The notes below the pieces were generated by a model. It was not told the origin of the DNA and searched no databases. It worked only from the letters and a program-made list of their open reading frames with translations. A DNA stretch of 33,508 bases from Sphingopyxis sp. (lineage in GTDB: Bacteria; Pseudomonadota; Alphaproteobacteria; Sphingomonadales; Sphingomonadaceae): the NCBI RefSeq assembly GCF_016793825.1, contig NZ_JAEULM010000012.1, forward strand, positions 1 to 33,508, in the 5' to 3' direction. Position 1 is the stretch's first letter. Every line of letters begins with the position of its first letter. Positions 8,002-27,976 of the stretch are shown piece by piece. The position numbers were made by a program, and so were the translations under genes.

Positions 8002-8016
8002 ACTCCCTCCCTATGA

Positions 8017-8030
8017 ATTGTTTTTACAAT
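8017..8030. promoter_or_regulatory. Palindrome ATTGT-N4-ACAAT before the TonB-receptor start
   Basis: ATTGTTTTTACAAT is a perfect inverted repeat (arms ATTGT/ACAAT, 4-base spacer) 16 bases upstream of the start codon, within an A/T-rich leader. Position suits a repressor site. It resembles, but is not identical to, the TTGTATT elements of the neighbouring catabolic promoters. Confidence 0.4.
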
Positions 8031-8123
8031 GAACAAAGTACATATTTTTCACAGGGAGGCAAATGAAAAAGCCAATTCTCCTTCAAGTTCGGCTGGAAAA
8101 TTACACTTCATTGCTCTGGAATG

Positions 8124-9704
8124 CTATTTTGCATCCATATCCCACATACGCGGAATGCCCATCGTCCAGCCGCGGTAACGCGCTAGCGCCGGCCCCACGG
8201 CATCGACCCGCACATAATTGCCGATCATGATGACAGGGTTCCATGCGATCGCCTTGCGATGCAGACGATCGAACAATTGCTGACGCGTCGCCGGATCGGC
8301 TTCGACCGCCGCCATATTGGTCAGCATGTCGGCCTCCTGATCCTCCCACAGATACCAGGCATGATCCCCCTTCTGGCCGACGATCGCGCTGTACATCAGG
8401 GCGGGATCAGTCCGCGCCGAGAAGATGATCGGCGTGATCTGGTAATTGTGCGAGCCGTAAGTCTCATATTGCGTCTGCCACGGCACCTCCTTCACTGCGG
8501 CGTTGAACCCGGCGGCGGCCATCTCCCCCTGCAACATCCTGGCGACGGCAAGATTGACCGGATAGACATCGCCGCTGGCAAGGATATCGATGCGCTCGCC
8601 CTTGTACCCCGCCTCGGCAAGCAGCGCCCGCGCGCGCGCCGGGTCGTGCGGCACCGCATCGGCGTGTATCGCGCTATATTGCGGAAGACCGCGCGCGATC
8701 ATCGAGGGATTGGCCCGGCCTTCGCGCCCGAGCACGGCATCGACGATCGCTTCACGGTCCATGGCGTGCGCAACCGCGAGGCGGATTCGGGGATCGCGCA
8801 TCACGGGATCGCGGGTCTGGATCGCGAGCATCAGGGCTTCAGCGGTTTCCTGCGGCACCATTCGGACACGGGCTGCGCCGCTGTAGAGCGCGCGGTTCGT
8901 CTCCTTGACGTCAGGCACGAGATCGAGTTCGCCCGCCTTGAGCATTCGGGCCGCGCGCGCAGCGTCGGTCACCACCCTGAATTCGACCCGGTCGGCGATC
9001 GCCTTGCGGCTGCCGGCAAGCCCGCTCGCCTGTCCGCGATCGGCGACATAGCCCTTGTAGCGCTCAAGGATGACGCCATCGCCCTTGCGCCATTCGACAA
9101 AGCGATAGGGGCCGGTGCCGACCGGCTTCGACCAACTGCCGTCGGCAGCCACCGAGTCGGGGTGGATGATGCCATAGATGCAGTGATTGCTCGCAAGATG
9201 GTGTGGAAACATCGCGCTCGGGCTCTGCAGCCGGATTTCGACCGTCCGCGTATCGGGCGCCGCAACCGAGACGATGTAGGACGGGCGGATATATTCCTCG
9301 AACCCGCCGTCGATTTGTGGACGGCAATTGGTGCCCCAGTTCCGCGAAGGGTCCATAAAGCGGTCGAAGTTCCACTTGACGATCTGCGCCGTGAGCGGCT
9401 GCCCGTTATGGAAAGTCACGCCATCGCGGATCGTGAAGCGATAAGTCTTGCCGTCGTCCGACACCGTCCAGCCCGATGCAAGGTTCGGGGCCAGTGTCAT
9501 GTCGTCGCGATAGGCGACCAGACTTTCCATGACATGGTGAAGGACCATCGTCGTATTGTCGTCGTTCTTCGTCGCAAATTCGGTGCTCGCGATATCGGAC
9601 GATATCGCGACGCGGATAACCTGCCGCGCATCGGCGGCCTGTGCCGCCGAAAAACTCGAAACGATCAGAAAAAGCGTACAAATCCTCAGGAAGAGAATGT
9701 TCAT
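8124..9704 (-). CDS. Periplasmic substrate-binding protein of an oligopeptide-type ABC importer (SBP family 5), copy A
   Basis: 526 residues from ATG 9704, which has GGGGGA six bases upstream; the earlier in-frame start is less likely. A type I signal peptide (MNILFLRICTLFLIVSSFSA, cleavage after AQA) is followed by the SBP_bac_5 layout: SDDGKTYRFTIRDGVTFHNG (the family signature), KPVGTGPYRFVEW, RLAVAHAMDREAIVDAVL and a C-terminal domain ending in PRMWDMDAK. The family binds peptides, opines, nickel chelates or glycosides in the periplasm and delivers them to DppBC-type permeases. It is the last gene of the minus-strand transport operon, 16 bases after the fused ATPase gene, and is paralogous to the lipoprotein-type SBP at the other end of the transporter genes. 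Confidence 0.93.
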   Translation of the reverse strand: MNILFLRICTLFLIVSSFSAAQAADARQVIRVAISSDIASTEFATKNDDNTTMVLHHVMESLVAYRDDMTLAPNLASGWTVSDDGKTYRFTIRDGVTFHNGQPLTAQIVKWNFDRFMDPSRNWGTNCRPQIDGGFEEYIRPSYIVSVAAPDTRTVEIRLQSPSAMFPHHLASNHCIYGIIHPDSVAADGSWSKPVGTGPYRFVEWRKGDGVILERYKGYVADRGQASGLAGSRKAIADRVEFRVVTDAARAARMLKAGELDLVPDVKETNRALYSGAARVRMVPQETAEALMLAIQTRDPVMRDPRIRLAVAHAMDREAIVDAVLGREGRANPSMIARGLPQYSAIHADAVPHDPARARALLAEAGYKGERIDILASGDVYPVNLAVARMLQGEMAAAGFNAAVKEVPWQTQYETYGSHNYQITPIIFSARTDPALMYSAIVGQKGDHAWYLWEDQEADMLTNMAAVEADPATRQQLFDRLHRKAIAWNPVIMIGNYVRVDAVGPALARYRGWTMGIPRMWDMDAK

Positions 9705-9720
9705 AATGTCCCCCAATCTG

Positions 9721-11310
9721 TTATTGGCTCAATGTCGGAAATGCTGAAACCAGCTTCTTCACATAGGGATTGCCGGAAGCCCCGAAGACCCGCCCGGTCT
9801 CGTCGAACGCTTCCAGCTTCCCGTTCTTCATGATCGCGACGCGGTCGCAGATCGACCGGACCACCGCGAGGTCGTGGCTGATAAAGAGGCAGGCGAACCC
9901 GCGCCGGCGCTGAAGCGCGGCCAGCAGGTCGAGGACTTGCGCCTGAACGGTCACGTCGAGCGCCGCCACCGCCTCGTCCGCGATCAGCAGGTCGGGATCG
10001 ACCGCGAGCGCGCGCGCGATGCAGACACGCTGCCGCTGCCCCCCCGACAATTGATGCGGCAGCCGGTCGGCAAAGGCCGCCTCGAGCCCGACGTCGACGA
10101 GCAGCTGCTCGACCTTGGCGCGGCGCGCCGCGCGGGGCAGCTCCGCAAGGCCTGCCGACACGATCGCTCCGATCGTCTGCCGCGGATTCAGCGACGAATA
10201 GGGATCCTGAAAGACATATTGTATCCGGTTGCGCGCCTGGTGCCGCGCCGGCCCCTCGGTCCCGGCGACATTGGTGCCGTCGAAAATAATCTGTCCTCCG
10301 GCGACATCGACCAAACCCGCGATCGCGCGGCCCGTCGTCGATTTTCCCGACCCCGACTCGCCGACCAGACCGACGAACTCACCGCGCCGCACGTCGAAGC
10401 TCAGCTGGTCGACGGCACGAAAAGACTTCGCGCGCGCGCCGAAAAATCCGCCTGATGCAGTATAATCGACGCACAGCCGATCGATCGCCAGCAGGACTTG
10501 CCCGGTACCCGTCGACCGGCGCGGCGCGCGCTTCGATGGCGCGGCGGCGAGCAGTGATCGGGTGTAGGCCGACGCCGGAGAGCGGAGGAGTTCTCCCGTC
10601 GGCCCGGCTTCTTCCATTTTCCCGCGGCGCAGCACCACCAGCTGGTCGGCGTAGCGTTCGACGAGACCAAGGTCGTGGGTGACAAAAAGGACGCCGGCAT
10701 TCATGTCCTTTGCGACGCGGACCATATCGTCCAGCACGTCCTTCTGGACGATCGCGTCGAGCGCGGTCGTCGGCTCGTCGGCGATCAGCAGCTTCGGCCG
10801 CAGCAGCATCACCGCCGCGAGCATGATCCGCTGCCGCAGGCCGCCGGAAAATTCATGCGGATATCTGTCGAGGCTCGTCGCCGCATTCGGGACGCGGAAC
10901 GCATCGAGCATCGCAACCGCCGCCGTGCGCGCATCGCCCGGCGACATATGGCGATGCCAGCACAGCGCCTCGGTCACCTGCGTGCCCACCGTCAGTGCCG
11001 GATTGAGCGACGACATCGGCTCCTGAAAGACCATGCCGATGCGCGCGCCGCAAACGCGTCGCAATTCAGCCGGCCCGAAATCGAGAAGATCCTCACCGCA
11101 AAAGCCGAGGGCGCCCGACTTCACCGCCAGATTTTCGGGCAACAGCCCCATCACCGCCCGCGACGTCAGCGTCTTGCCCGAACCCGATTCGCCCACCAGA
11201 GCGCACACGCTCGCGGGCAGCACATCGAAGGAGACCCGGTCGACAAGCGCCACCTCCCCCAATTGCGGCGCGATCACCAGTTCGCGCACGGACAGGATGA
11301 CGCCTTCCAT
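9721..11310 (-). CDS. Fused double ATPase (DppD-DppF type) of the peptide-type ABC importer
   Basis: 529 residues. The start at 11310 shares one base with the stop of the permease gene (TGATG); a longer upstream frame is an out-of-register extension over that gene. Two complete nucleotide-binding domains are visible in tandem. Domain 1: Walker A GESGSGKT (40-47), signature SGGLRQR, Walker B LLIADEPTTALD. Domain 2: Walker A GESGSGKST, signature LSGGQRQR, Walker B LLIADEAVAALD, H-loop ISHDLAVV. Both are of the oligopeptide class. In classical systems these are two genes (dppD, dppF); fused versions are known (for example GsiA, YejF-like). Domain 1 departs slightly in the signature (GGLRQR), domain 2 in the Walker B proline (A). 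It powers import of the substrate captured by the two SBPs. Confidence 0.95.
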   Translation of the reverse strand: MEGVILSVRELVIAPQLGEVALVDRVSFDVLPASVCALVGESGSGKTLTSRAVMGLLPENLAVKSGALGFCGEDLLDFGPAELRRVCGARIGMVFQEPMSSLNPALTVGTQVTEALCWHRHMSPGDARTAAVAMLDAFRVPNAATSLDRYPHEFSGGLRQRIMLAAVMLLRPKLLIADEPTTALDAIVQKDVLDDMVRVAKDMNAGVLFVTHDLGLVERYADQLVVLRRGKMEEAGPTGELLRSPASAYTRSLLAAAPSKRAPRRSTGTGQVLLAIDRLCVDYTASGGFFGARAKSFRAVDQLSFDVRRGEFVGLVGESGSGKSTTGRAIAGLVDVAGGQIIFDGTNVAGTEGPARHQARNRIQYVFQDPYSSLNPRQTIGAIVSAGLAELPRAARRAKVEQLLVDVGLEAAFADRLPHQLSGGQRQRVCIARALAVDPDLLIADEAVAALDVTVQAQVLDLLAALQRRRGFACLFISHDLAVVRSICDRVAIMKNGKLEAFDETGRVFGASGNPYVKKLVSAFPTLSQ

Positions 11311-12125
11311 CAGCCACGCTCCTGCATATGTGGATCGAGGCGGTCGCGCAGAAGATCGCCGGCGAGGTTGACGGCCAGCACGGTCAGCGTGATCGCGAGG
11401 CCGGGCCAGATACAAAGCCAGGGGGCGCTCGACAGGAAACGCCGCCCTTCGGCGAGCATATTGCCCCATGTCGGTTGCGGTGGCGACACACCGACGCCGA
11501 GGAAGCTGAGCGCGCTTTCCGCGAGCAGCGCGCCCGAGAGCAGCGACGCCGACAGGATGATGACCGGGCCGATACTGTTCGGAAGAATCTGCTCGCGGAA
11601 TATCCGCCAGCGCGAATGGCCAAAGAGGCGCCCGACTTCGACGAACTCGCGTTCGCGCACCGCCTGCACCGACGCGCGGAACTGGCGCGCGACCACGGGG
11701 GTCTGGGCGATACCCAGCGCCAAGATGACGCTCGCCGCCCCGCCCCCGAGCGCCGCAGACATGGCAAGCGCGAGCAGGAGCCCGGGGAATGCGAGGAGGG
11801 CGTCGATCAACAGCCCCGCGAGGCGATCGATCCATCCTCCGAAAAATCCGGCGATCCCGCCGAGCAACATTCCCGCGCCAAGCGACAGAAGCACGCTGGC
11901 GACCGCGATCGCCGCGCTGGTAACGGCACCCGCAGCGAGGCGGCCGAATATGTCGCGGCCATATCCGTCGGTTCCGAGCCAGTGGGCGGTGCCCGCCACG
12001 CCGAGCCGCTGATCGATATCGAGCATGTCGGGATCTCCGCCGATGCCGAGAAGGCCCGCAAGGACGAGCAACGCAAGCGCCGCGAGAAGGACGCCGACGA
12101 TCGATGCGCGCAGTGAAAGCCTCAT
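11310..12125 (-). CDS. ABC importer permease, DppC type
   Basis: 271 residues from ATG 12125, which overlaps the previous stop by ATGA. An N-terminal membrane helix (ASIVGVLLAALALLVLAGLL) is followed by a periplasmic stretch with HWLGTDGYGRDIFGRLAAGA, the hallmark of DppC-type subunits. Then come five more hydrophobic segments and the EAA coupling motif REREFVEVGRLFGHSRWRIF with the downstream ILPN. It forms the inner-membrane channel with the DppB-type subunit. Its end overlaps the ATPase gene by one base, indicating translational coupling. A frame that starts further upstream (12704) is rejected because it would read through the partner permease gene. Confidence 0.95.
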   Translation of the reverse strand: MRLSLRASIVGVLLAALALLVLAGLLGIGGDPDMLDIDQRLGVAGTAHWLGTDGYGRDIFGRLAAGAVTSAAIAVASVLLSLGAGMLLGGIAGFFGGWIDRLAGLLIDALLAFPGLLLALAMSAALGGGAASVILALGIAQTPVVARQFRASVQAVREREFVEVGRLFGHSRWRIFREQILPNSIGPVIILSASLLSGALLAESALSFLGVGVSPPQPTWGNMLAEGRRFLSSAPWLCIWPGLAITLTVLAVNLAGDLLRDRLDPHMQERG

Positions 12126-13069
12126 GGCTTCGTCCTCAGCTTCGGATCGAAGACCGGATAGAGGAGATCGACAAGAAGGTTCACCGCGATATAGACCAGC
12201 GAGATGAACAGGACCGCGCCCTGGATGACCGGATAGTCTCGCGACGTGATGCTCTCGACGAGCAGCCGCCCCAGCCCCGGCACGGTGAACACGGTCTCGA
12301 TGATCGCCGCGCCCGCGAGCAGATTGCCGAAGATCAGACCGACGATCGTCAGCACGGGCGAAAAGGCATTGGGCAGGACGTGGCGAAACAGGATGCGGCG
12401 ATCGCTCAGTCCCTTCGAGCGCGCGAAGGTCACATAATCCATGCGCATCACGTCGAGCGTCGCCGACCGCGCCATACGCAGCACGGTGCCCGCCTGAACG
12501 AAAGTCAGCGCAACCACGGGCAGCAGGATGAAGGCCAGCGACCGCAATCCGGCCGACGGCGGCAGATACCCCATCGTCGGCAGCCAGCCGAGTTCGACAC
12601 CGAACAGGAGGATCAACATGATCGCCATCCAGAAGCTCGGGACCGACAGCGCGAGAACCGACAGGAGTACGATCCCCGTGTCGAACCGCGACCGATGGCG
12701 CCATGCGGCGATCATGCCGAGCGGCACCGCAATCAAGGTACTGAGCGACGTCGCGATCGTCACCAGCCAGGCGGTCACTGAAAAACGCGACAGAACCAGC
12801 GGAAGCACTTCTTCCTGCGTCAGGAGCGACCGGCCGAAATCGAGCCGGACGATCCGACCGAGCCAGTCGGCATATTGCTCGATCAACGGCCGGCCCAGCC
12901 CGAGCTCGACGCGCACCCGTGCGAGAAGCTCGCTGTTGTTCGCATCGCCCACGATCAGGACCGCCGGGTCGCCCGGTACGAAATGGACAAGCAGGAACAC
13001 GACCACCGACACGATCAGGATAGTCGGAACCGCGAGCAGCAGTTTGCGGAAGATCAGGCGTCCAGTCAT
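12122..13069 (-). CDS. ABC importer permease, DppB type
   Basis: 315 residues from ATG 13069, chosen because it overlaps the preceding SBP stop as ATGA; an upstream start would add 14 residues inside that gene. Visible: a first transmembrane helix (LLLAVPTILIVSVVVFLLVH), the family motif VPGDPAVLIVG, the LGLGRPLIEQYADWLGRIVR-LDFGRSL block typical of DppB, five further helices and the EAA loop MRMDYVTFARSKGLSDRRIL with HVLPNAFSPVLT. It pairs with the DppC-type subunit encoded immediately downstream. Confidence 0.95.
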   Translation of the reverse strand: MTGRLIFRKLLLAVPTILIVSVVVFLLVHFVPGDPAVLIVGDANNSELLARVRVELGLGRPLIEQYADWLGRIVRLDFGRSLLTQEEVLPLVLSRFSVTAWLVTIATSLSTLIAVPLGMIAAWRHRSRFDTGIVLLSVLALSVPSFWMAIMLILLFGVELGWLPTMGYLPPSAGLRSLAFILLPVVALTFVQAGTVLRMARSATLDVMRMDYVTFARSKGLSDRRILFRHVLPNAFSPVLTIVGLIFGNLLAGAAIIETVFTVPGLGRLLVESITSRDYPVIQGAVLFISLVYIAVNLLVDLLYPVFDPKLRTKP

Positions 13070-14634
13070 TGCCGCGCGACTCCCCAGAGGCGGAGCTTGT
13101 TGAGTCCCCACGGCTGCACGCCCCGCAGATCAGTGCGATAGGCGTTGACGACCGGAATATTGTAGAGCTGGAGGATCGGAACGTCGCGGATCATCGCACG
13201 ATGGACGTCGACGAAAACCGCCCGGCGCTCACCTGGCTCTTGCTCGCCCGCTGCGGTTTCGAGCAGCGACGCCGCCGCGTCCGACTGCCATTGCACCCAG
13301 GCGTCGCGATCGAAATCGCCCAAAATGACACGATAACCAAGCACCGGATCCGGACGCCCCGAAAATTGCATCGTCATCAGCGAAAAATCACCGGCAAGAT
13401 AGCGGCTCATCATCCCGGTCCATTCGGTCGCCTCGATCCGGGCGTCGATGCCGACATTCTGCAGCATCGACTGGATATAGACGGCATTGTCGAACAACAT
13501 CGGGAAGGCGCGGCTGGTCTCGATCACCAGCGGCTCGCCGCGATAGGCCGAACGGACGAGATAGCGGCGCGCAAGCGCAGGATCGAACACATAACCCGCC
13601 GCATGTCCCGGCAACCAGTCCGGGCTGTCCAGCGGGACGATCGACGGATTCGCCTTCGACAGACCGAAGCTGGCGGCCTTCGCGAGACCGCGGTAGTCGA
13701 TGGCATGCGCAATCGCGAGGCGCAGGTTGCGATCGGCGAGCAGCCCCGACCGCGAGCGCATCAGCAGCGCGGTCCAGTCATAACCCGGCACCGAAACCAC
13801 ATGAATGCCGCGCTGCACCTTCAGCTCATCGACCGCGCCGACGTCGACATTGCCGACGATATCGACCTCTCCTGCCACCAGCGCAGCGCGCGCGCTCGCA
13901 GGGTCGGGAATGACCTGCCACCGGATACGGTCGACCAGCGCGCGGCGCGCGCCTGCATAGCCGTTGCGCGCCTCAGGGCGCGGCCGGTAAGCCGCGAACC
14001 GCTCGAGCATGACATATTCGCCCCGGCGATGACCGGCGAGGCGGAAAGGTCCGGTGCCCACCGGCCCCGCCCACGAACCGTCGCGCGCAACCGAAGCGGG
14101 ATGCATGATACCAACAAGGCATTGATGATTGGCCAATTTGGTCAGAAACATCGCGTCGGGCCGGTCGAGATTGACACGCAGCGTCAGCCGGTCGGGCGCT
14201 TCGATGCCAACGATGCGATGCCCTTGCGAACCATCGAACCAATAGCTGCACGAGAATTTGCTGCCGGGGTGAAAGGCCCGCTCAAGACTCCATTTCGCCT
14301 CGCGCGCGGTGACCGGTTCGCCATTGTGAAAGACGACGCCGGGTCGCAGATGAAAGCTGTAGCTGCGGCGGTCGGCGGACAGGTCGATGCGCTCGGCAAG
14401 CGCCAAACCCACCGTCATGTCTTCGCGGTAAGCGACGAGTCCCTCGACGACATGGTTCAGAATCTCGTCACTCACCGCATCGCGATTGACGCCGGGCTCG
14501 CTCGAGCGCAGATCGCTGCCGATCGCAACGCGCAGCTCGCGCGCGTCGTCGTCGGGCAGGTCCGATCCGCAGCCGCCGGCCAGCAGGACGACAGCGGCCA
14601 ACAACCCGCTAAACCGTCCTGCAATTCCCGTCAT
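13066..14634 (-). CDS. Lipoprotein substrate-binding protein of the ABC importer (SBP family 5), copy B
   Basis: 522 residues. The start (14634) overlaps the stop of the C45 gene by ATGA. The N-terminus is a lipoprotein-like signal (FSGLLAAVVLLAGGCGSD; lipobox LAGGC, slightly loose), so it is probably membrane-anchored. SBP_bac_5 landmarks follow: SYSFHLRPGVVFHNGEPVTA, WAGPVGTGPFRLAGH, RLAIAHAIDYRGLAKAASFG, and a C-terminal SRYLAGDFSLMTMQFSGRPD block. It parallels copy A domain by domain, including the NHQCLVGIMHPASVARDGSW region (copy A: NHCIYGIIHPDSVAADGSW). One transporter with two dissimilar binding proteins suggests either two ligands or sequential hand-over. Confidence 0.93.
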   Translation of the reverse strand: MTGIAGRFSGLLAAVVLLAGGCGSDLPDDDARELRVAIGSDLRSSEPGVNRDAVSDEILNHVVEGLVAYREDMTVGLALAERIDLSADRRSYSFHLRPGVVFHNGEPVTAREAKWSLERAFHPGSKFSCSYWFDGSQGHRIVGIEAPDRLTLRVNLDRPDAMFLTKLANHQCLVGIMHPASVARDGSWAGPVGTGPFRLAGHRRGEYVMLERFAAYRPRPEARNGYAGARRALVDRIRWQVIPDPASARAALVAGEVDIVGNVDVGAVDELKVQRGIHVVSVPGYDWTALLMRSRSGLLADRNLRLAIAHAIDYRGLAKAASFGLSKANPSIVPLDSPDWLPGHAAGYVFDPALARRYLVRSAYRGEPLVIETSRAFPMLFDNAVYIQSMLQNVGIDARIEATEWTGMMSRYLAGDFSLMTMQFSGRPDPVLGYRVILGDFDRDAWVQWQSDAAASLLETAAGEQEPGERRAVFVDVHRAMIRDVPILQLYNIPVVNAYRTDLRGVQPWGLNKLRLWGVARQ

Positions 14635-15731
14635 TGACCGGCCTGCAGCCGATATACCGAATAGTCGGCACCTTCATAGGGGGCCGCAGCGACGTGGAGT
14701 TCGCCGGCGCTCACGTTCATGATGACCGTCGCGACCGTCGACACCTCGGACTCGCCGACCCCGCCCGGCTCGGGCGGACGACAGACCGAATGCGGCCAGC
14801 CGTAGCGATCGGCGAAGGCCGATTTCAGATCCCCGATCTCCGCAGGGCGATTAAGATTGCGCAGATGCGTCTCGACGCGGCGACGGCGATAGAGCGTGTC
14901 CGGCGCCGTCGAGATGCTGAGTTCGCGAACCTTCGCCTTGGCGGCTGCGGAGAGAAAATGGTTCGAATGGACCAGCAGATCCTGTTCCGCTTCCACGAAG
15001 AAGGTCTCGACCGGAGTCTTTTCGAACGACAGCGCTTCGCCGGCGGACCAGCTCAGCATCACATTGTTCGAGAAGGACACGGGCGTATCGATGAGCGTGC
15101 GAACCGCATCGACGTAATGTTCGGCGCACAGCGTCTTGCGGCGAAGGATCGAGAGCGGAATGCCGTCGCGCCCGTCGTCATGCTCGGTACGCAGGAAATT
15201 CCCGGTGATCGCGATGCCTTTGCTGTTGAGGCCGCAACGCGCCAGCCCGCCAGCCTCGACCAGCGTCAGAATTTCAGGCCCCTTCTCGGGAAAGACATGC
15301 AGGACGATCGTCGAATCAAGGCATTCGTCGCGCCAGTCCCAATTCTGGCCGTGCAGGACATCCTCATGGAGCGAACGCCCCGGCAGAATGATCACGCCGG
15401 TGCATCCCTCATCGATCGAGCCATTCGCCGCGCCATAGAGCAATTCGGTGCGGGCGTTGAGAAAGATGATATCCTCGACCGGAAGCCCGGCGCCCTCGGC
15501 GATACCTTCCAGTTCGCCGACAATGTCATGGTCAAAGGCTTCGAGGCGCTTGCGAAACCCCGCCGCCGCGCGCCGGACCTCGCCCCATTCGAGCCCTTTG
15601 GCCCGGAGTGCGGGCGCATAGATTTCGAGACCCCGGTTGATCTGGGTACCTGCCGCAGCGCCATACTGGCGCCCGCGCTCATAGGGCCCGCCGCTGATGC
15701 AGATATAGGGAAAATGCCGCACCTCGCTCAT
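14631..15731 (-). CDS. C45-family N-terminal nucleophile amidohydrolase (acyl-CoA:6-APA acyltransferase / tan-like)
   Basis: 366 residues. The family signature is clear: SGGPYERGRQYG at the N-terminus, LPVEDIIFLNARTELLYG, then the autoprocessing site DEGCTG with the Gly109/Cys110 bond, at the same place as Gly102-Cys103 in penicillin acyltransferase. Next are GQNWDW, EAGGLARCGLNSKGIAIT and SNHFLS. C45 members cut and transfer N-acyl amides after self-cleavage exposes the nucleophilic Cys. Characterised examples include isopenicillin N acyltransferase and Drosophila Tan, which hydrolyses N-beta-alanyl-dopamine. No signal peptide is seen, so it works in the cytoplasm after import. It overlaps both neighbours by ATGA, placing it in the importer operon. 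Its amide substrate is presumably what the transporter brings in. Confidence 0.85.
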   Translation of the reverse strand: MSEVRHFPYICISGGPYERGRQYGAAAGTQINRGLEIYAPALRAKGLEWGEVRRAAAGFRKRLEAFDHDIVGELEGIAEGAGLPVEDIIFLNARTELLYGAANGSIDEGCTGVIILPGRSLHEDVLHGQNWDWRDECLDSTIVLHVFPEKGPEILTLVEAGGLARCGLNSKGIAITGNFLRTEHDDGRDGIPLSILRRKTLCAEHYVDAVRTLIDTPVSFSNNVMLSWSAGEALSFEKTPVETFFVEAEQDLLVHSNHFLSAAAKAKVRELSISTAPDTLYRRRRVETHLRNLNRPAEIGDLKSAFADRYGWPHSVCRPPEPGGVGESEVSTVATVIMNVSAGELHVAAAPYEGADYSVYRLQAGQ

Positions 15732-16579
15732 GCCGCAGCCTTCCCGCGTACCGCCAACAGCGTGTCGAGGAAGAAGGCACGGACGGTATCGAGCACCGCA
15801 ACGCCATCATGCGCAATGCCTTCGACGAAATCGAACCGTACAGCAATTCCGTTGTCTTCGAACGATTTCCGCAGCGAGGTCAGCCGGTCGATCCGCGTCA
15901 CGCCGCTGTCGTTGATCCCCGGTATCCACCAAGGCGTATCTTCGGCGACCGTGATTTCCCAGGTTTCGCGATCATTGGTGCCCACCACCATCTGGATCGG
16001 AACCTCCCTGATCCTTGTAATATCGATCTCCCGACCGAACACCGCGTCCATGCCGCCGGTGCCGACCCACCAGGGCAGGGTATCGTCGAGCAGCGTCACG
16101 ACCCCGGGCGCGCCGATCGAGGCGCCCGCGAGCAATTCGGGGTAAAGATAGAGGAAGCGGTGCGTGAAATGCCCGCCGCCGGAAAATCCCTGCATGAAGA
16201 ATTTGTCGCTGACGCGATATTTCTCGCGCACTTCCTCAATCATGTCGAGCAGCAGGAGGTCAAAGCGAACTCCGTTGCTGGCCAGCAGCTTGTAATTGTC
16301 GAGATCGCCGACCCCGAACAGGTTGCACGCAAAAAGCGGCGCCAGCACGATGCAGCGGTTGTCCTCGCAAAATTGCGAGAACAGGTTGCGATAGTCCGAA
16401 GCTCCGCGCTCGGTGCCATGGACGATCACGACCAGATCATAGCTGTCGTTCGCATCATCCGAATAGGAGGTCGGCACATAAAGGCAATAACTTACCCGCT
16501 GGTCGGAGCGCGAAGCGATGAACGGCGTCGCCCCCCGGTCATAATAGCCCAGCTTCGGCCGCCCGATATCGCCTGTCAT
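15728..16579 (-). CDS. Cytoplasmic alpha/beta hydrolase (esterase/peptidase-like), first gene of the importer operon
   Basis: 283 residues from ATG 16579 behind GGGAGGG. It has no signal peptide. The alpha/beta-hydrolase core is visible: VVIVHG (oxyanion loop, 50-55), nucleophile elbow GFSGGG with Ser133, acid Asp203 (VVGTNDRETWE), and His257 (VEGIAHDG). The overall shape recalls PHB-depolymerase/feruloyl-esterase-like (PHBdp/LpqC) hydrolases more than HSL enzymes. It is co-transcribed with the C45 amidohydrolase (ATGA overlap), so two cytosolic hydrolases of different chemistry may dismantle the imported molecule, one at an ester or second amide, one at the acyl-amide. Substrate is not predictable. 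Confidence 0.82.
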   Translation of the reverse strand: MTGDIGRPKLGYYDRGATPFIASRSDQRVSYCLYVPTSYSDDANDSYDLVVIVHGTERGASDYRNLFSQFCEDNRCIVLAPLFACNLFGVGDLDNYKLLASNGVRFDLLLLDMIEEVREKYRVSDKFFMQGFSGGGHFTHRFLYLYPELLAGASIGAPGVVTLLDDTLPWWVGTGGMDAVFGREIDITRIREVPIQMVVGTNDRETWEITVAEDTPWWIPGINDSGVTRIDRLTSLRKSFEDNGIAVRFDFVEGIAHDGVAVLDTVRAFFLDTLLAVRGKAAA

Positions 16580-16629
16580 GCAATCCCTCCCGTCTTCGAT
16601 TGAATCTTGATTGCACTTATATCAAACAG

Positions 16630-16636
16630 AATACAA
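16630..16636 (-). promoter_or_regulatory. TTGTATT element in the divergent hydrolase/GntR promoter
   Basis: AATACAA on the plus strand (TTGTATT on the minus) lies in an A/T-rich 190-base divergent intergenic region, about 50 bases from the hydrolase start. The same heptamer appears in the two other intergenic regions of the island (19,208-19,275 and 21,809), suggesting a common regulator. Confidence 0.4.
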
Positions 16637-16776
16637 CATAAAAATCAGATTGAGGCATGTTTGCAGGCTCAATCGTCTTTTCCCCGCTCACAGCACATAA
16701 TCTGGAACTTTTTTGAGTGGCCGCAGCCGGGCAGACGGGATAGGGTCTCCATCCCATTCCTCTACCGGTGCCAACA

Positions 16777-17694
16777 ATGCCAGACCAACCCCGCAAGATG
16801 AGCGCCCTCCAGTCGAAGATCGCACGGCAGATACTCGATTATATCCGTGACAATGAACTGAGCGTCGGGCACCATCTGACCGAGGAAAGTTTTGCCGCCC
16901 AGTTCGGTGTGTCGCGCACGCCGGTGCGGCACACCTTGAGCTTCCTCGCCGAAGCCGGCATCCTCGAACTCATCCCCAACCGGGGATTGTTTCTTGCCAG
17001 GCATTGGAGCGATATCGATGTGGGCGACCTCGATATCCCCGATTCCGCGGAAGACGAACTGCACGCGCAGATATTGCGCGACCGGATCGGCGGCAAGCTG
17101 AACGGCCAGCATACCGAGACCGAGTTGATGCGCGCCTATTCGGTGCAGCGCGGAACCCTGACCCGGGTCCTGTGGCGCCTCGCGAAAGAGGGCGTAATCG
17201 AGCGCAGCGCAGGTATCGGCTGGACCTTTCTCGAAAGCCTCGAAAGCCCGGAGGCCCATTCGGCCAGCTATCGCCTCCGGCTCCTCATCGAACCCGCAGC
17301 CTTTGCCGAACCCGATTACGCGCTCGACCGCGAGCGCCTCGCCGGTTGCCGGGCGCTGCACGAAAGCCTGCTGCGCAAGGGACTGGAACGTGCGACCGCC
17401 ATCGAATGGTTCGAGGCCAATTCGGAATTCCACGAAATGATCGCTTCCTTTTCACGCAATCCCCATTTTCTCGACATCATCCAGCAACAGAACCGGCTAC
17501 GCCGGATCCGCGAATATGATGTGCGCGACAATGACCGCATGGCGCATTCGTGCCGCGAGCATCTGTCGATCATGACTGCGATGGAATCCGACGACCGCCC
17601 ACTGGCGGCACTCATCCTGCGTCGCCACCTTGAGGAAGCCAGCGATTTTGTCGCTCGCGAATGGGAAGAACTGCCCGAAATCAACGGGGCCTGA
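16777..17694 (+). CDS. GntR-family regulator with two winged-helix segments and an FCD domain
   Basis: 305 residues from ATG 16777; GTG 16768 and ATG 16798 are alternatives, and none has a strong ribosome site. Residues 8-75 are a GntR winged helix (ARQILDYIRDNEL, then LTEESFAAQFGVSRTPVRHT, then ILELIPNRGLFLA). Residues about 90-155 look like a second, divergent winged helix (LHAQILRDRIGGKLNG, TETELMRAYSVQRGTLTRVL, GVIERSAGIGWTFLE). The remainder is an FCD ligand-binding bundle with conserved EFHEMIASFSRNPHF and EHLSIMTAM; the metal-type residues (Asp/His) are partly visible. Tandem winged helices are unusual but occur in this subfamily. It is divergent from the importer operon and convergent with the dehydrogenase gene, overlapping it by 14 bases. 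It probably represses both until an amine or amino-acid-like inducer binds. Confidence 0.88.
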   Translation: MPDQPRKMSALQSKIARQILDYIRDNELSVGHHLTEESFAAQFGVSRTPVRHTLSFLAEAGILELIPNRGLFLARHWSDIDVGDLDIPDSAEDELHAQILRDRIGGKLNGQHTETELMRAYSVQRGTLTRVLWRLAKEGVIERSAGIGWTFLESLESPEAHSASYRLRLLIEPAAFAEPDYALDRERLAGCRALHESLLRKGLERATAIEWFEANSEFHEMIASFSRNPHFLDIIQQQNRLRRIREYDVRDNDRMAHSCREHLSIMTAMESDDRPLAALILRRHLEEASDFVAREWEELPEINGA

Positions 17695-19153
17695 TGTACC
17701 AGCCCCAGGGCGTGTCGGAGCAATAGCGGGTGATTTGCTTGACCTCGCGATACTGGGCCAGCCCCCACGCACCAAGTTCGCGCCCGACGCCGCTACGCTT
17801 CAATCCACCCCACGGCGCCTCGCAGAAGGTCGGCTGCGAACAGTTGATCCAGACCACCCCGGCACGAAATGCGCGCGCAACGCGCTCGCACCGGGCGGCA
17901 TCGCGCGACAGGACGGCCGCGGCGAGCCCATAGTCGCTGCAATTGGCGAGCGCGACAGCCTCCTCTTCGGTCCGGAAGCAGCGCACGGCAAGCACCGGTC
18001 CGAACACCTCCTCGGTCCAGATTTCGGCATCGACCGGCGGCTGGAACAGGATCGTCGGCTCATAGAAAAAGCCCGCATCGAGATGGGGCGGAACGCCTCC
18101 GCCGGCGAGCAGTTCGACGCCCTGCTCGCGTGCGCGATCGACAAATCCCGCGACCCGGTCGCGCTGCGCTGCGCTGATCAGTGGCCCGAGCGTCACGTCG
18201 GGATCGAGCCCGCTGCCGATCCGGATCGCCGCCACTTCCGTCACCAGCCTAGCGAGCAGCCTGTCGGCGATGCTCTCGTCGACGAGCAACCGCGATGTGG
18301 CACTGCAGACCTGCCCCTGGTTCCAGAAAACCCCGAACATGATCCATTCGACCGCCACCTCGATATCCACGTCGTCGAATATGAGGATCGCCGATTTCCC
18401 GCCGAGTTCGAGACTGACATTCTTGATGTCGGGCGCCGCGGCGGCCATGATCTTCGCACCGGTCGCCGCCGACCCGGTAAAGGCAACCTTATCGACATCG
18501 CGGTGCTCGACGAGCGACATGCCCGCCTCGCCGCCATAGCCGGTGAGAATGTTAAATACGCCGCGCGGCAGCCCGGCATCCTGCGCGATCCGTCCCAGTT
18601 CGAGCGCAGTCAGTGACGTCAATTCCGAAGGCTTGAGGACCATCGTCGCCCCTGCCGCCAATGCCGGGGCGACCTTCCAAGCCGCCATGAGCAAGGGATA
18701 GTTCCACGGAATGATCTGCGCCGCGACACCCACGGCCATGGTTTCGACCGACGCCGAAAAGCGGCTGTCGGGAACGGCCAATACGGCCCGATCGCCGCCA
18801 TCCAGATCGTCGGCCAGCCCGGCGTAAAAGCGAAAACAGGCTATCGTGTCGTCGACATCGCCAAATGACTCGGCGAGCGGCTTGCCATTGTCTCGCGTCT
18901 CGAGCGCGGCAAGCGCATCGCGCCGAACCTCGACCCCGTCGGCGATCGCACGAAGCAAGGCAGCCCGCTCCCGACCCGGAACCGCCTCCCATCCCTCGAA
19001 CGCCCTGCGCGCCGCTGCAACTGCCAGCCGCACCTCCCCGGCGCCGGCAGCCGCGACGGAGCCGATCACCTTTCCATTGGCCGGATTCACGCTGTCGATC
19101 GACCGCCCGTCCGCAGACTCGATCCAGTGACCATCGATCAGGAGTCTCAACAT
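17681..19153 (-). CDS. NAD(P)-dependent aldehyde dehydrogenase (betaine/aminoaldehyde dehydrogenase-like)
   Basis: 490 residues from ATG 19153; the frame is open upstream, but the ALDH homology begins at MLRLLIDGHW. Conserved parts: cofactor and oxyanion Asn151 (IPWNYP), Lys174 (VLKPSE), FTGSAATG (225-232), general base Glu249 (LELGGKS), nucleophile Cys283 (NQGQVCSATSR), and the GPVLAV and WGGLKRSG motifs. Length is normal for the superfamily. The closest look is to betaine-aldehyde and omega-aminoaldehyde dehydrogenases. It is not the CoA-acylating malonate-semialdehyde type, which is a point to note because the adjacent aminotransferase looks like the beta-alanine enzyme. The product should be a carboxylic acid. 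It is divergent from the aminotransferase, sharing a 150-base promoter region. Confidence 0.92.
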   Translation of the reverse strand: MLRLLIDGHWIESADGRSIDSVNPANGKVIGSVAAAGAGEVRLAVAAARRAFEGWEAVPGRERAALLRAIADGVEVRRDALAALETRDNGKPLAESFGDVDDTIACFRFYAGLADDLDGGDRAVLAVPDSRFSASVETMAVGVAAQIIPWNYPLLMAAWKVAPALAAGATMVLKPSELTSLTALELGRIAQDAGLPRGVFNILTGYGGEAGMSLVEHRDVDKVAFTGSAATGAKIMAAAAPDIKNVSLELGGKSAILIFDDVDIEVAVEWIMFGVFWNQGQVCSATSRLLVDESIADRLLARLVTEVAAIRIGSGLDPDVTLGPLISAAQRDRVAGFVDRAREQGVELLAGGGVPPHLDAGFFYEPTILFQPPVDAEIWTEEVFGPVLAVRCFRTEEEAVALANCSDYGLAAAVLSRDAARCERVARAFRAGVVWINCSQPTFCEAPWGGLKRSGVGRELGAWGLAQYREVKQITRYCSDTPWGWYIRPR

Positions 19154-19207
19154 ACAAAGCCTTTCCCGGAAAGCCTCCGCCCGCAAATTGCTCGTGAAGC
19201 GAAGAAA

Positions 19208-19275
19208 AATACAATGATACGCTAAATTTCCCGAATTTTTGGCTATGTCAAATATGATTTTGTATTTTATACAAA
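19208..19275. promoter_or_regulatory. Divergent promoter with TTGTATT elements and a 17-bp palindrome
   Basis: This A/T-rich region between the aldehyde dehydrogenase and aminotransferase genes holds AATACAA at 19208-19214 and, at 19259-19275, the perfect inverted repeat TTTGTAT-TTT-ATACAAA. The palindrome lies 30 bases from the aminotransferase start. Such sites are the usual form of FCD/GntR operators, and the regulator gene is next door. Binding is inference. Confidence 0.55.
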
Positions 19276-19304
19276 CAAAAATCATTTCAACGTGGAGAGG
19301 ATCT

Positions 19305-20627
19305 ATGACACAAGCCAGCCCGACCCAGCGATCGCATTCCGCCTTCTGGATGCCCTTTACGCACAATCGCCATTTTCGCTCGGAACCACGAATCCTCGCC
19401 TCGGCGCTGGGCATGCACTACAAGACCGAAAGCGGGCGCGAGATACTCGACGGCACTGCGGGTCTCTGGTGCGTCAATGCTGGGCACGGCCGGCACGAAA
19501 TCGTCAACGCGATTCAGCGCCAGGCCGCTATCCTCGGCTTCGGGCCGACCTTCCAGCTCGGACATCCGCTCGCCTTCGCGTTCGCCGACAGGCTGGTAGA
19601 GATGATGCCCACAGGCCTCGATCGCATCTTCTTCACCAACTCGGGCTCCGAAGCGGTCGACAGCGCGCTCAAGATCGCGCTCGCCTATCAGCGCGCAATC
19701 GGACAAGGGACCCGAACCCGGCTCATCGGGCGCGAACGCGGCTATCACGGCACCGGCTTCGGCGGCCTGTCGGTCGGCGGCATCGCGACCGTCCGGCGTG
19801 ACTTTTCCCCCCACATTCCCGGCACCGATCATCTGCGCCATACGCTGGCCGGGGAGCCCCTGTTCGCGGTCGGCCAGCCTGCGGACGGCGCCGAACTCGC
19901 CGACGATCTCGAAAGGCTGGTCGCCCTGCACGGCGCCGAGACGATCGCCGCGGTCATCGTCGAGCCGGTCGCCGGCTCGACGGGTGTGATCGTGCCGCCG
20001 GTCGGCTATCTCGAACGGCTGCGCGAAATTGCGACGCGTCACGGCATTCTGCTCATCTTCGATGAAGTCATCACGGCTTTCGGACGGCTTGGCGCCGCAA
20101 CCGCGGCGCATCATTTCGGAGTTACACCCGACCTGATCACGATGGCGAAGGGCCTGACCAACGCCGCCGTGCCGATGGGCGCGGTCGCCGTCCGCACCGA
20201 TATCCAGGAAGCAATCCTCAACGCTGCGGGGTTCGGCATCGAACTTCACCACGGCTACACCTATTCGGGGCATCCGCTCGCCGCGGCGGCGGGCCTCGCC
20301 ACGCTCGACGTCTATCAGAAAGACGGGTTGTTCGAGCGCGCCGCCGGTATCAGCCCCTATTTCTCGGCGAAGGTCCATTCGCTGCGCGGCGCGCGCCACG
20401 TCCGCGACATCCGCAACCTCGGCCTCGTAGCGGGGATCGAACTCGATCCCCGCGAGGGCGAGCCGGCGCGGCGGGCGCTGGAGATATTCCACCGCTGCTT
20501 CGACAGCGGCCTGCTGATCCGGGTAACCGGCGACATCATCGCGCTCTCGCCGCCACTGATCGCCGAAGAGGGCCATATCAACGCGATGATCGACACCATC
20601 CGCGCAGCGCTCGAAGCCGTCGACTGA
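19305..20627 (+). CDS. Class III omega-aminotransferase, beta-alanine:pyruvate type
   Basis: 440 residues from ATG 19305, chosen for the GGAGAGG just upstream; a longer start would add 22 residues of promoter DNA. The N-terminus FWMPFTHNRHFRSEPRILAS and FQLGHPLAFAFADRLVEMMP follow the omega-amino-acid:pyruvate aminotransferase pattern. PLP site residues are in place: GSEA (114-117), YHG, Asp253 (LIFDEVI) and Lys282 (MAKGLTNAAVPMG). HHGYTYSGHPLAAAAG matches the family. These enzymes move the amino group of beta-alanine or other omega-amines to pyruvate, giving an aldehyde and alanine. The aldehyde would be the substrate for the dehydrogenase encoded divergently. Substrate choice within the class is inference. 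Confidence 0.9.
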   Translation: MTQASPTQRSHSAFWMPFTHNRHFRSEPRILASALGMHYKTESGREILDGTAGLWCVNAGHGRHEIVNAIQRQAAILGFGPTFQLGHPLAFAFADRLVEMMPTGLDRIFFTNSGSEAVDSALKIALAYQRAIGQGTRTRLIGRERGYHGTGFGGLSVGGIATVRRDFSPHIPGTDHLRHTLAGEPLFAVGQPADGAELADDLERLVALHGAETIAAVIVEPVAGSTGVIVPPVGYLERLREIATRHGILLIFDEVITAFGRLGAATAAHHFGVTPDLITMAKGLTNAAVPMGAVAVRTDIQEAILNAAGFGIELHHGYTYSGHPLAAAAGLATLDVYQKDGLFERAAGISPYFSAKVHSLRGARHVRDIRNLGLVAGIELDPREGEPARRALEIFHRCFDSGLLIRVTGDIIALSPPLIAEEGHINAMIDTIRAALEAVD

Positions 20628-20657
20628 AGGGCGGCAGCCGGGCCGGTATATTCGACC

Positions 20658-20683
20658 GCGGGGGCGGATCCGTCCACCCCCGC
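20658..20683. terminator. Candidate bidirectional terminator between convergent genes
   Basis: GCGGGGG (20658-20664) pairs with CCCCCGC (20677-20683) around a 12-base loop containing GGATCC. It lies between the aminotransferase stop and the cupin stop, which face each other. No U tract, so the strength is uncertain. Confidence 0.35.
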
Positions 20684-20690
20684 CCATGCT

Positions 20691-21047
20691 TCAGCCATGC
20701 ATCTCGACATAATATTTCCGCGTCGTCACCGGCATGCGCCACAGGCCGCGAAACCCCTTTCGGATGATGAAAGCGTCGCCCGGGCCAAAACCCCACGACC
20801 CGCCGCCTTCCTCGACAAGCTCGATCCGCCCTGAAACCACACTGCAGAATTCGTCGAACGGATAGGATGCAAAGTCGATCGCTCCCGCCTCGCTCTCCCA
20901 CAGCCCGACGCTGGCCCGCGATGCAGCATGGTCATGCACCGTCACCCCGGACTCCACCGGGTCGCCCTCGACCACCTGATCGGGAAAACTCAGCCCCAGA
21001 TGATCGAGCGCCGCGCTCGCCGGAATCGGTAGCACATAGTCAGTCAT
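20691..21047 (-). CDS. Small cupin-domain protein (DUF861/Cupin_3 type)
   Basis: 118 residues from ATG 21047, chosen because GGGAG lies nine bases upstream; the next start (21056) leaves no room for a ribosome site. The single cupin barrel shows ASVGLWESEAGAIDFASYPF, DEFCSVVSGRIELVEEGGG, FGPGDAFIIRKGFRGLWRMP and a C-terminal RKYYVEMHG. Cupin_3 proteins (relatives of ureidoglycine aminohydrolase) often accompany amine or amino-acid catabolic genes, where they act as small metal enzymes or binding proteins. The expected metal His residues are largely missing from the usual motif (no clear HxH), so catalysis is doubtful. It overlaps the end of the PaiB-like gene by 8 bases, so the two are co-translated. 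Function here unknown. Confidence 0.75.
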   Translation of the reverse strand: MTDYVLPIPASAALDHLGLSFPDQVVEGDPVESGVTVHDHAASRASVGLWESEAGAIDFASYPFDEFCSVVSGRIELVEEGGGSWGFGPGDAFIIRKGFRGLWRMPVTTRKYYVEMHG

Positions 21048-21666
21048 TTTTGACATCTCCCATTGAATTGCGCATCAGTTCGGCAAGCGCGATATCGGCG
21101 GGGCGCCCGCGCTCGTGCAGAAAATCCGCTACCCCGGCTTGTTGCGCCACATCCTTGTCCTGACTGAGCTTCAGCGCGCCCTTGAGTTCGGTCACCTCGA
21201 TCGAGAACACGATCACGCCCTTGCGGAATGCAGCCGGGATCGCCGGATCGATTTCGGCAAGCGACCAGGGCACAGGCTCGAAACTTTCATAATGATCGAC
21301 GATCGCCTCGAGGTGCCGGCCGATCGCCTCTTCGTCCGCCTCGCGCCGCCAGCGCCCGCGCGCCTGGACGACCCCGTAATTCCATGTCGGGACATCGGGC
21401 GCCCGATAACAGCGCGGCGAAACATAGGCGTTGGGCCCCATGAACGCCGCGAGCACTTCCGCACCGTCGCGCAAATGCCGCCAGTGCGGGTTCGCGCGTG
21501 CAAAATGGCCATGCAGCCGCAATCCGGCCACACCTTCCTCAACGAGCAACGGCACATGGGACATCGCGAGCTCGTCGCCGCCCGCCAGAGCCGCGAAGCT
21601 GTGCGCCCGCATGAAGTCGATCAATACGCGCGTCCGCTCTTCCCGCAGCCACTCCGCCAGAAACAT
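21040..21666 (-). CDS. PaiB-like FMN-binding split-barrel protein
   Basis: 208 residues from ATG 21666 (MFLAEWLREE); the family normally starts with MF/MYxPxxFRE, and GGGGG lies upstream. Conserved PaiB blocks: LAMSHVPLLVEEG, LRLHGHFARANPHWRHL, GAEVLAAFMGPNAYVSP, and the signature DVPTWNYGVVQARG. Then KGVIVFSIEVTELKGALKLSQ. The Bacillus prototype PaiB was described together with PaiA in polyamine/acetyl-amine-linked regulation; most homologues have a flavin-reductase-like fold with unknown activity. Its place beside an amine-catabolic island suggests a link to amine metabolism. It is followed directly by the cupin gene. Confidence 0.85.
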   Translation of the reverse strand: MFLAEWLREERTRVLIDFMRAHSFAALAGGDELAMSHVPLLVEEGVAGLRLHGHFARANPHWRHLRDGAEVLAAFMGPNAYVSPRCYRAPDVPTWNYGVVQARGRWRREADEEAIGRHLEAIVDHYESFEPVPWSLAEIDPAIPAAFRKGVIVFSIEVTELKGALKLSQDKDVAQQAGVADFLHERGRPADIALAELMRNSMGDVKND

Positions 21667-22823
21667 CGCCACCCCCACCAGTACCGCCATCGACACACCA
21701 CACAGCAAAGCTGCCCCGACCGATCACATTGATTTCATATATTACGAAGACCTATTTTCAAGTCCAGTTTGAACAGAAAGGCTGGTATTTGGTATATTTT
21801 TTATGATAAATACAATTTATGAGATCCGACAAGACCTTTGCCCCTTCGGCAAAAAGCTGGCCAACCCGCGTCAAGGTGAGGCGCAAATGGCCGACTGCGG
21901 CTAGGCCGCTTTTAGGCACACACCCAAGAAAGCGGACGTCGGAGAATAAAGTGCGCACGCCGTCGCCACCTGCGTCCCGCAAAGTCGCGGCGGGGGTGTG
22001 GTTCTGGCGCGAGTGATATCTGGACAAATATCACAGGCGTTGAACAGCAGACTCCCTGCCTTTTCTCGACCTATTACCCCCGCCACGTCGCGTCGCGTCG
22101 CGTCGGGAAAACGCTCCGCGAACCAAGAAGCGCGTTCAACTCGCGCACGTTGCGCTGGATACCCGACACAGCGATGATGGCAGGTGACGTGATGGAAAAT
22201 CTGGCGAAACTGATTGGTGCTGCTCACAAGCGGCTTCATGAGGTGGATGCGTCACCGCTTAAGCTGACGGCCCATCCGGACGTGAAGGCGCCTGCGACCG
22301 AATAGATACGACGCCGAACAACGGTCGGAATGCTGGCGGCGGATATCCAGCGGGCTCTGCGGACGGGCGGCGCGCCAGCCCATGTGACGACGAATGGATG
22401 CTCGCACAAAACTGGCCGTTCTACTGGGGTCGGCAGCGCGCCATGTTCAGGATCGCGGCATGAAACCCGAAAAGCTGGACTTCGCCCGCGGCTTCGAGCT
22501 CTCGGCACAAGCTGACATGATATGCGTGTGGACGCGGTGACGGCCCGCGAAAGGCTGGCACATGTTCGCTGACGGCTTGGTGAAATTCAGGCAGCTTCCG
22601 GCTCGATAAGGGCGCCGCTAGTTGTGGCCTAAGCGATTGTTGTGCGCTGGGACTGATATCGATATTGTTTTACCAGCGGCAGGTGTCGGCTTCGTGCTCT
22701 TTACCGCTATTCTGAGATATATCTACGGCAGCGAGCGTCGGTGCTTGCCTCGCGGATTTCGGAAACAACCCGTTTTTTTATAATATCAGTTGATGAGCTG
22801 TTGATACAAAATGACATCGGGTA
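21667..22823. other. 1.16-kb region without a convincing gene; decayed coding traces
   Basis: The first 170 bases are A/T-rich promoter DNA for the PaiB-cupin pair. Further on, plus-strand fragments in different frames look protein-like: MENLAKLIGAAHKRLHEVDA ending at a stop near 22,305; DDEWMLAQNWPFYWGRQRAM near 22,390-22,450; and MKPEKLDFARGFELSAQADM near 22,460-22,530. This pattern suggests a gene broken by frameshifts, but I do not recognise the family. A pentamer repeat (GTCGC, about four units) lies at 22,086-22,105. Bases 22,600-22,823 are A/T-richer, with a run of T near 22,770. Confidence 0.35.
21809..21815 (-). promoter_or_regulatory. TTGTATT element upstream of the PaiB-cupin pair
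   Basis: AATACAA on the plus strand lies in a 100-base A/T-rich patch 143 bases before the PaiB-like start. It is the same heptamer as in the two divergent promoters of the island. Confidence 0.35.
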
Positions 22824-23231: not shown

Positions 23232-23321
23232 CGTCTGTCACCCCTATGGATGACACGCTATTAACGATGAGCCGTTGCGGACGAGATAAGGTAAATGGTT
23301 AAGGCGGGATTATGAAAATGA

Positions 23322-26644: not shown

Positions 26645-26651
26645 CGCGGCT

Positions 26652-27392: not shown

Positions 27393-27426
27393 CCCCCCGC
27401 GCCCCCAAGCGCTTCGCACCCGACAT

Positions 27427-27924: not shown

Positions 27925-27943
27925 CGAATATGCTGAAGTGCAG

Positions 27944-27969: not shown

Positions 27970-27976
27970 ACCGAAC

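Follow-up and report, generated by a model that had tools for sequence, protein, structure and literature searches.

Inducible regulons for the import and catabolism of a compound are a known kind of bacterial system, and several described proteins and pathways resemble parts of the one reported here. They include siderophore uptake by FoxA/FoxB, RhtA and FhuA, with the Fox and Rht pathways as general background, and the siderophore-degrading amide hydrolases of soil bacteria, which have been described biochemically. The fungal acyltransferase of the C45 family, a family of N-terminal nucleophile (Ntn) enzymes, frees an amino-acyl group. According to passages of PMC10194958, the fungal enzyme cleaves itself between Gly102 and Cys103, and its insect relative Tan degrades N-beta-alanyl dopamine. 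Excerpts of other articles report cleavage of beta-amide bonds by the poly(aspartic acid) hydrolase PahZ1 (PMC4456602), activity of a Caulobacter omega-transaminase on beta-alanine and beta-aminobutyrate (PMC3281772), and a possible part for PepSY systems in periplasmic ferric reduction (PMC12004947). Here we describe a gene island around a bacterial C45 enzyme in a 33,508-nucleotide stretch of DNA from Sphingopyxis sp. (the window), which is the complete contig NZ_JAEULM010000012.1 of a 3.86-Mb genome in 52 contigs. Judged from its gene content and four operator copies, the island is likely to be a substrate-induced uptake-and-catabolism regulon with the logic of a pathway.

Gene set, operator and regulator

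We verified the gene order, strands and families of the island with the open reading frame listing, Pfam and NCBIfam. Its centre is a seven-gene operon on the minus strand (16579-8124), which encodes an alpha/beta-hydrolase (15728-16579), a C45 Ntn-type amide hydrolase/acyltransferase (14631-15731), a first solute-binding protein (SBP1, 13066-14634; PF00496, E 1.2e-70), a B-type permease (12122-13069; PF00528 and PF19300), a C-type permease of peptide/nickel importers (11310-12125; PF00528), both typed by their top NCBIfam models, a fused double ATP-binding cassette (ABC) ATPase with two ABC_tran stretches (9721-11310), and a second solute-binding protein (SBP2, 8124-9704; SBP_bac_5, PF00496, E 8.6e-81). 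The original prediction had read these genes as one unidirectional operon with overlaps at the first five junctions, and the coordinates and translations agree: four junctions are ATGA overlaps, one is a TGATG overlap, and a 16-base gap separates the ATPase stop (9721) from the ATG of SBP2 (9704).

Divergent from the operon lies the gene of a GntR regulator (16777-17694, plus strand), followed by genes for a betaine/aminoaldehyde-type aldehyde dehydrogenase (17681-19153, minus; Aldedh, E 2.3e-167), an omega-aminotransferase of the AptA family (19305-20627, plus), a small cupin (20691-21056, minus; Cupin_3, E 2.8e-15) and a PaiB-like flavin mononucleotide (FMN)-binding protein (21040-21666, minus; FMN_bind_2, E 1.2e-38). 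On the other side of the operon are a TonB-dependent receptor (5857-8001, minus; PF00593 and Plug) and, starting 35 bases after it on the same strand, a secreted esterase of the hormone-sensitive-lipase type (4655-5821, minus; Abhydrolase_3, E 1.9e-61; signal peptide recognized by eye). The esterase scores 272.5 bits against the LipP1 model NF058653, under its cut-off of 350. All these neighbours belong to the families first proposed for them. The island had been placed at 8124-21666; we extend it by the receptor because the receptor has its own operator, and by the esterase because of its position.

The operator was derived from other genomes. We trained a palindromic fit on up to 230 bases 5' of the GntR gene at 23 non-redundant loci, with the window excluded, and obtained as the best motif a 30-bp palindrome, taTTGTATTTTaT.at.AtAAAATACAAta. 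Its log-likelihood is 198, whereas motifs fitted to six sets of unrelated upstream sequences with a comparable AT content gave values of 53-69. A scan of the 33.5-kb window places the four top sites between or before genes of the island: 19258-19287 in the gap between dehydrogenase and aminotransferase (score 29.5, the strongest), 21788-21817 upstream of the PaiB-cupin pair (23.4), 8016-8045 upstream of the TonB receptor (23.0) and 16609-16638 in the gap between the hydrolase operon and the GntR gene (18.8). No other non-overlapping site scores above 6.5. In 2000 composition-matched, first-order Markov simulations per region, the score at 21788 was reached once and those at the other three sites never, and ten other regions of the window did not stand out in the same simulations (p 0.16 to 0.61). 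A second profile, built from 27 hand-picked sites of other loci with both strands of each, again ranks these four sites first in the window.

The motif also recurs where it was not trained. Across the 1.17 Mb of other loci, the scan gives 62 sites with a score of at least 15, of which 20 are training sites; counted by hand, 55 of the 62 lie in module promoters. Untrained sites stand 5' of aminotransferase genes at four loci (L017, L018, L027 and L041), 5' of the TonB receptor at L027 (and at L017, if the frame begins at a later codon), 5' of a PepSY gene (L028), in a PaiB/amidase gap (L026) and 5' of a second SBP gene (L037). Optional genes, where present, can thus share the same predicted operator control. 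In the window, the four copies support a common predicted control of the TonB receptor, the importer operon, the GntR gene, the dehydrogenase, the aminotransferase and the PaiB-cupin pair.

The presumed repressor itself departs from the usual form. It combines a GntR winged helix with an FCD domain, as FadR-type regulators do, but Pfam finds two GntR stretches, and the predicted structure (20 sequences, predicted local distance difference test (pLDDT) 90.2) contains complete winged helices at residues 10-73 and 91-151 ahead of the FCD helices, in place of the single N-terminal winged helix of the FadR type. None of the 50 Protein Data Bank (PDB) matches listed corresponds to the whole model, with template-modelling (TM) scores by model length of at most 0.48; the GntR-family proteins Lar, PmiR, VanR and FadR are among them. 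A 30-bp palindrome would suit two winged helices per subunit.

Conservation of the core module

When 396 genomes of the order were searched with the C45 protein at E 1e-10, 9 had a match, the source genome counted, and none of the 18 other genomes of the same genus listed had one. At E 1e-40, the class gave matches in 27 of 385 genomes and the phylum in 9 of 398, again with the source genome counted in each. A scan of GTDB contigs gave nine loci, seven titled as Alphaproteobacteria, Rhodospirillales or Gammaproteobacteria (one a Woeseiaceae) and two only as proteobacterium, and a plasmid collection yielded 54 matching records, of which six were mapped. We compared the neighbourhoods with the window proteins by blast and counted a gene if it lay within 9 kb of the C45 gene; some loci are truncated where their contigs end. 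Before counting, the duplicates L047, L048, L052 and L055 were removed; L038 had no C45 match in the blast used. The C45 proteins fall into a close group of 230 bits or more (48 loci) and a distant group under 180 bits (12 loci), with none between. The 48 close loci include the six mapped plasmid records; plasmid loci read later stand outside the count.

A full importer (two permeases and the ATPase) accompanies the close C45 gene at 34 of the 48 loci, the GntR gene at 31 and the hydrolase gene at 22. The accessory genes are scarcer: aminotransferase at 16, aldehyde dehydrogenase at 9, amidase at 9 and PaiB at 4 of the 48, with a TonB receptor at 11 and PepSY_TM at 10, while the blast used placed a cupin gene beside none of the 48. 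Among the distant loci, 1 of 12 has the importer, namely L037, whose C45 gene is the cut end of an operon of the same kind. The core of GntR regulator, hydrolase, C45 enzyme, SBP, two permeases and ATPase therefore recurs in Proteobacteria, so the arrangement in the island is more than chance, and the counts lead us to regard the GntR gene, the hydrolase, the C45 gene and the importer as the conserved unit and the amine-handling genes as add-ons. The original prediction had joined capture, import, hydrolysis, transamination and oxidation into one pathway and had proposed co-conservation of the C45 gene with importer and aminotransferase as a check. The link between C45 and importer holds (34/48), whereas the aminotransferase is present at 12 of the 34 full-importer loci and absent within 9 kb at the other 22. 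What stands is one regulated unit, as judged from the four operators, and not a co-conserved block of 14 genes.

Some individual loci deserve mention. L026 and L037 are contigs of one genome that together hold much of the gene set of the window plus PepSY and amidase genes. On a conjugative Klebsiella plasmid (L040, 10243-18071), GntR, hydrolase, C45, SBP, permease and ATPase genes lie next to an IS110 gene; the GntR gene there is shorter (10243-10878) and has no blast match to that of the window. Second C45 genes are found close to the first at L064, L077, L078 and L132. Hydroxycinnamate genes adjoin the Rhizobium etli locus, which is why hydroxycinnamic acid amides were considered as a substrate.

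Enzymes, importer and candidate substrates

The C45 protein matches PF03417 (E 2.2e-12, 47.6 bits, cut-off 23.2) and NF040521 (254.5 bits, cut-off 85). In its alignment with isopenicillin N acyltransferase (2x1d, E 1.1e-23), the cleavage cysteine is retained. Self-cleavage is predicted between Gly109 and Cys110, each conserved in 90% or more of the 49 sequences compared. The alpha/beta-hydrolase, for which Pfam gives no match at E 0.001, resembles esterases of the polyhydroxybutyrate-depolymerase type weakly by sequence and clearly by predicted fold. Its model (pLDDT 91.3) is nearest to PahZ1 (6ve6, the best PDB match; E 3.7e-18, TM-score 0.70 by model length, about 19% identity), with LpqC nearly as near. 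Residues S133, D203 and H257 are invariant in 13 sequences and are presumably catalytic.

SBP_bac_5, two permeases and two ATPase domains make the importer one of the Dpp/Opp/Nik class by Pfam and NCBIfam. In the peptide binder HbpA (3m8u), the first Asp of SGDNGDP anchors the amino end of the peptide. SBP1, which carries a lipoprotein-like signal by eye, lacks this Asp when aligned with HbpA, and so lacks this mark of a Dpp/Opp peptide binder; it has the signature S-x-R-x-DP instead. Among 44 SBPs with letters at the site, 34 carry the signature and 43 have the Arg. We therefore regard an ordinary peptide as a disfavoured substrate, and a peptide reading of the original prediction is not favoured for the same reason. 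The best PDB match of SBP1 is AapF (7kz8), whose ligand we take to be an ethanolamine amide; none of our claims rests on this.

Downstream steps are represented by AptA and the dehydrogenase. AptA passes its family model (NF052567, 684.6 bits, cut-off 500) and is a second copy in the genome, with a 68% paralogue elsewhere. Aminotransferases at L041 (Tistrella) and L042 (Rhizobium) are likewise AptA-type and over the cut-off; the L018 and L027 enzymes fall into other subfamilies of class III. The top NCBIfam model of the dehydrogenase is BADH (539 bits, under the cut-off of 668.6). Diaminopropionate ammonia-lyase-like genes adjoin the module at L027 and L029, and L027 also has a glutamine-synthetase-like gene. 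No part in amide or amine chemistry is known to us for cupin or PaiB-like proteins of the types found here, and the earlier statement that each family of the island acts on amides, amines or their aldehydes was too wide in this respect.

As for the receptors, the nearest NCBIfam model of the window receptor is the siderophore receptor RhtA, and the window receptor is in turn the best RhtA match in the genome (184 bits, with the next at 93). It scores 129 bits against the siderophore-receptor model TIGR01783, under the cut-off of 223.5. We tested nine receptors beside other C45 loci, from 8 of the 11 receptor loci within the 48 and from L131. Four of the nine (L017, L020, L022 and L131) pass TIGR01783, and for the remaining five the top match is RhtA or TIGR01783, below the cut-offs, so that siderophore-receptor models match best for all ten receptors, the window receptor included. 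As a background, four whole genomes with 320 receptor domains have at least 25 matches that pass TIGR01783, one of them being a module receptor. By Pfam, L019 also has a PepSY_TM gene, outside the 10 of 48 counted by blast. At two loci on Rhizobium plasmids the module adjoins transport genes of a siderophore type, namely an iron-siderophore ABC system (L042) and a set of sigma-70, FecR and TonB receptor genes (L131).

In the proposed pathway, the repressor would keep the four promoter regions shut, and binding of a breakdown product to its FCD domain would lift the repression. The TonB receptor would admit an amide compound, for which an iron-chelating siderophore or similar chelate is the most likely candidate, and trimming by the secreted esterase may follow. 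Import of the compound or its fragments into the cytosol would fall to the SBP5-type ABC importer. There, the self-activating C45 enzyme and the hydrolase with the PahZ1/LpqC-like fold would cut ester or amide bonds and free an amine or omega-amino acid. Pyruvate would receive the amino group through AptA, and the aldehyde would be oxidised by the dehydrogenase. Our main ground for treating these steps as one pathway is that the optional genes, too, can carry the operator. We tentatively favour a siderophore or similar chelate, imported as an amide, as the substrate because the receptors fit siderophore models and 10 of the 48 loci carry PepSY genes. A bolder version is doubtful: the regulon would be widespread and serve to eat foreign siderophores, with the GntR protein sensing a siderophore fragment and switching on receptor, importer, C45 enzyme, PahZ1-like hydrolases and the catabolism of diamines or omega-amino acids, and the chelator would be consumed as carbon and nitrogen.

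A number of observations weigh against the regulon and against a chelate as its substrate. Genome-wide, the profile built without the window sites keeps only 19258 at E 10; the profile including them finds only the four island sites, which is partly so by construction. In eight other genomes, the latter profile finds sites in seven, nearly all at C45 training loci, and none in G555; in G540 and in G014, one of the sites lies outside the C45 loci, and no module gene was recognised near it. Seven of the 62 sites in other loci were counted outside module promoters, the sites in part reflect the shared ancestry of close relatives (L046/L017, L024/L018, L050-L051/L041), and AT-rich operators may overlap -10 boxes. 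Two permeases and the ATPase are missing within 9 kb at 14 of the 48 close loci (L025, L026, L030, L049, L057, L060, L061, L063, L064, L065, L067, L068, L070 and L081). Two of these have a truncated neighbourhood: L049 is cut by a contig end, and L026 stops inside the C45 gene, its last 141 bases being identical to the start of the importer-bearing L037 when the two are compared, not joined. For the chelate, the window receptor scores 188.4 bits against the RhtA model NF052649, far under the cut-off of 1100, and is thus related to RhtA but not a member. The island has no PepSY gene, and PepSY is not rare in the genome, with 8 match rows of which 5 are strong. Since 37 of the 48 loci have no receptor and 38 no PepSY gene within 9 kb, chelate uptake is not a general feature of the module.

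The main rival for the substrate, and a real possibility, is a small non-chelating beta- or omega-amino acid amide, for example a beta-alanyl or beta-aspartyl compound, whose beta- or omega-amide bond the hydrolase and the C45 enzyme would cut and whose freed beta-amino acid AptA would transaminate. Such chemistry agrees with the reported activities of PahZ1 on beta-amides (PMC4456602), of Tan on N-beta-alanyl dopamine (PMC10194958) and of the Caulobacter enzyme on beta-alanine and beta-aminobutyrate (PMC3281772), each as given in the passages cited above, as well as with the ammonia-lyase-like genes at L027 and L029 and the conserved Arg in place of the Asp of HbpA. The PahZ1 match, however, is one of fold at 19% identity with LpqC nearly as near, and siderophore-type receptors and PepSY under the same operator are not explained by such an amide alone. 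The two kinds of substrate overlap in their chemistry. Generic uptake and use of oligopeptides would fit the importer class, an M13 peptidase near the module at L018 (2607-4715, by Pfam) and related large genes at L019 (1061-3145) and L024 (594-2600); we consider it unlikely, since the SBPs lack the Asp of HbpA and a dedicated regulator, together with the rarity of the system in the order, points to a special compound.

Two further explanations concern the island as a whole. The importer operon and the amine-catabolism set of AptA, dehydrogenase, cupin and PaiB could be separate systems that are neighbours by chance, as the low counts of aminotransferase (16/48) and dehydrogenase (9/48) at other loci would allow. 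The strongest operator of the window, however, sits between AptA and the dehydrogenase, and the same operator precedes the aminotransferases of the four loci named above, which makes this highly improbable. The relationship of C45 to penicillin acyltransferase and the core copy on a Klebsiella plasmid would suit a system that degrades an antibiotic or toxin for protection and not for food. Active import followed by transamination and oxidation seems rather to follow the logic of food use, and we judge a protective role very unlikely. An inducible uptake-and-catabolism regulon remains our preferred reading of the island.

Surrounding genes and relation to described systems

Outside the island, a putative porin gene lies to the left of the esterase (2810-4213); no operator copy stands upstream of it, and a 41% relative is found at L019. 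The short stretch at 2173-2580 matches the plug of a TonB receptor but no barrel and is perhaps a remnant. To the right, a minus-strand cluster (22824-28453) holds an outer-membrane usher gene (24197-26644), whose neighbours resemble chaperone and fimbrial subunits by eye and have no Pfam match at E 0.001. Four segments at the two contig ends (363-704, 954-1979, 30832-31592 and 31738-32952) comprise an IS21 IstB remnant, two IS110-type transposases that are 43% alike, and an IS4/5-type transposase.

With this analysis, a conjecture based on the order of genes becomes a defined regulon whose operator model can be used to scan any genome. Bacterial C45 enzymes also gain a concrete setting, where the NCBIfam model says only acyltransferase/hydrolase. 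If the substrate is a siderophore, the regulon would be a route for soil and water bacteria to consume public iron carriers, with a bearing on competition for iron; if such siderophore-eating is true, the island would also provide genes for siderophore-degrading amide hydrolases. The original prediction knew of no described system with this gene set, and a search of open-licence PubMed Central full texts with few terms likewise found none, nor anything clear in print on tandem GntR proteins. As far as these searches reach, the combination of genes is undescribed, and the form of the repressor, with two winged helices, FCD domain and 30-bp palindrome, looks unusual.

To our knowledge, the fumonisin cluster contains neither a C45 enzyme nor an SBP5 importer. 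In the layout of a carboxylesterase (FumD) followed by an aminotransferase (FumI, as given in excerpts of PMC2933618), fumonisin catabolism in Sphingopyxis sp. MTA144 is similar to the island, and we set it aside as a parallel in layout only. With the FoxA/FoxB, RhtA and FhuA systems, the module shares receptors that match siderophore-receptor models; unlike them, the window set has a GntR operator and predicted cytosolic hydrolases and amine catabolism. The window C45 enzyme belongs to the same Ntn family as isopenicillin N acyltransferase and Tan and shares the Gly-Cys cleavage site, but, in contrast to the fungal and insect enzymes, it is bacterial and encoded inside an importer operon. The predicted fold of the alpha/beta-hydrolase is nearest to PahZ1 and LpqC, from which it differs by its low identity, the lack of a signal peptide by eye and its membership in an import operon. 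Finally, the regulator is like the FadR-type GntR repressors of the FCD family in its GntR winged helix and FCD domain, and the PDB folds matched include FCD GntR proteins, whereas its tandem winged helices and its 30-bp palindrome set it apart from them.

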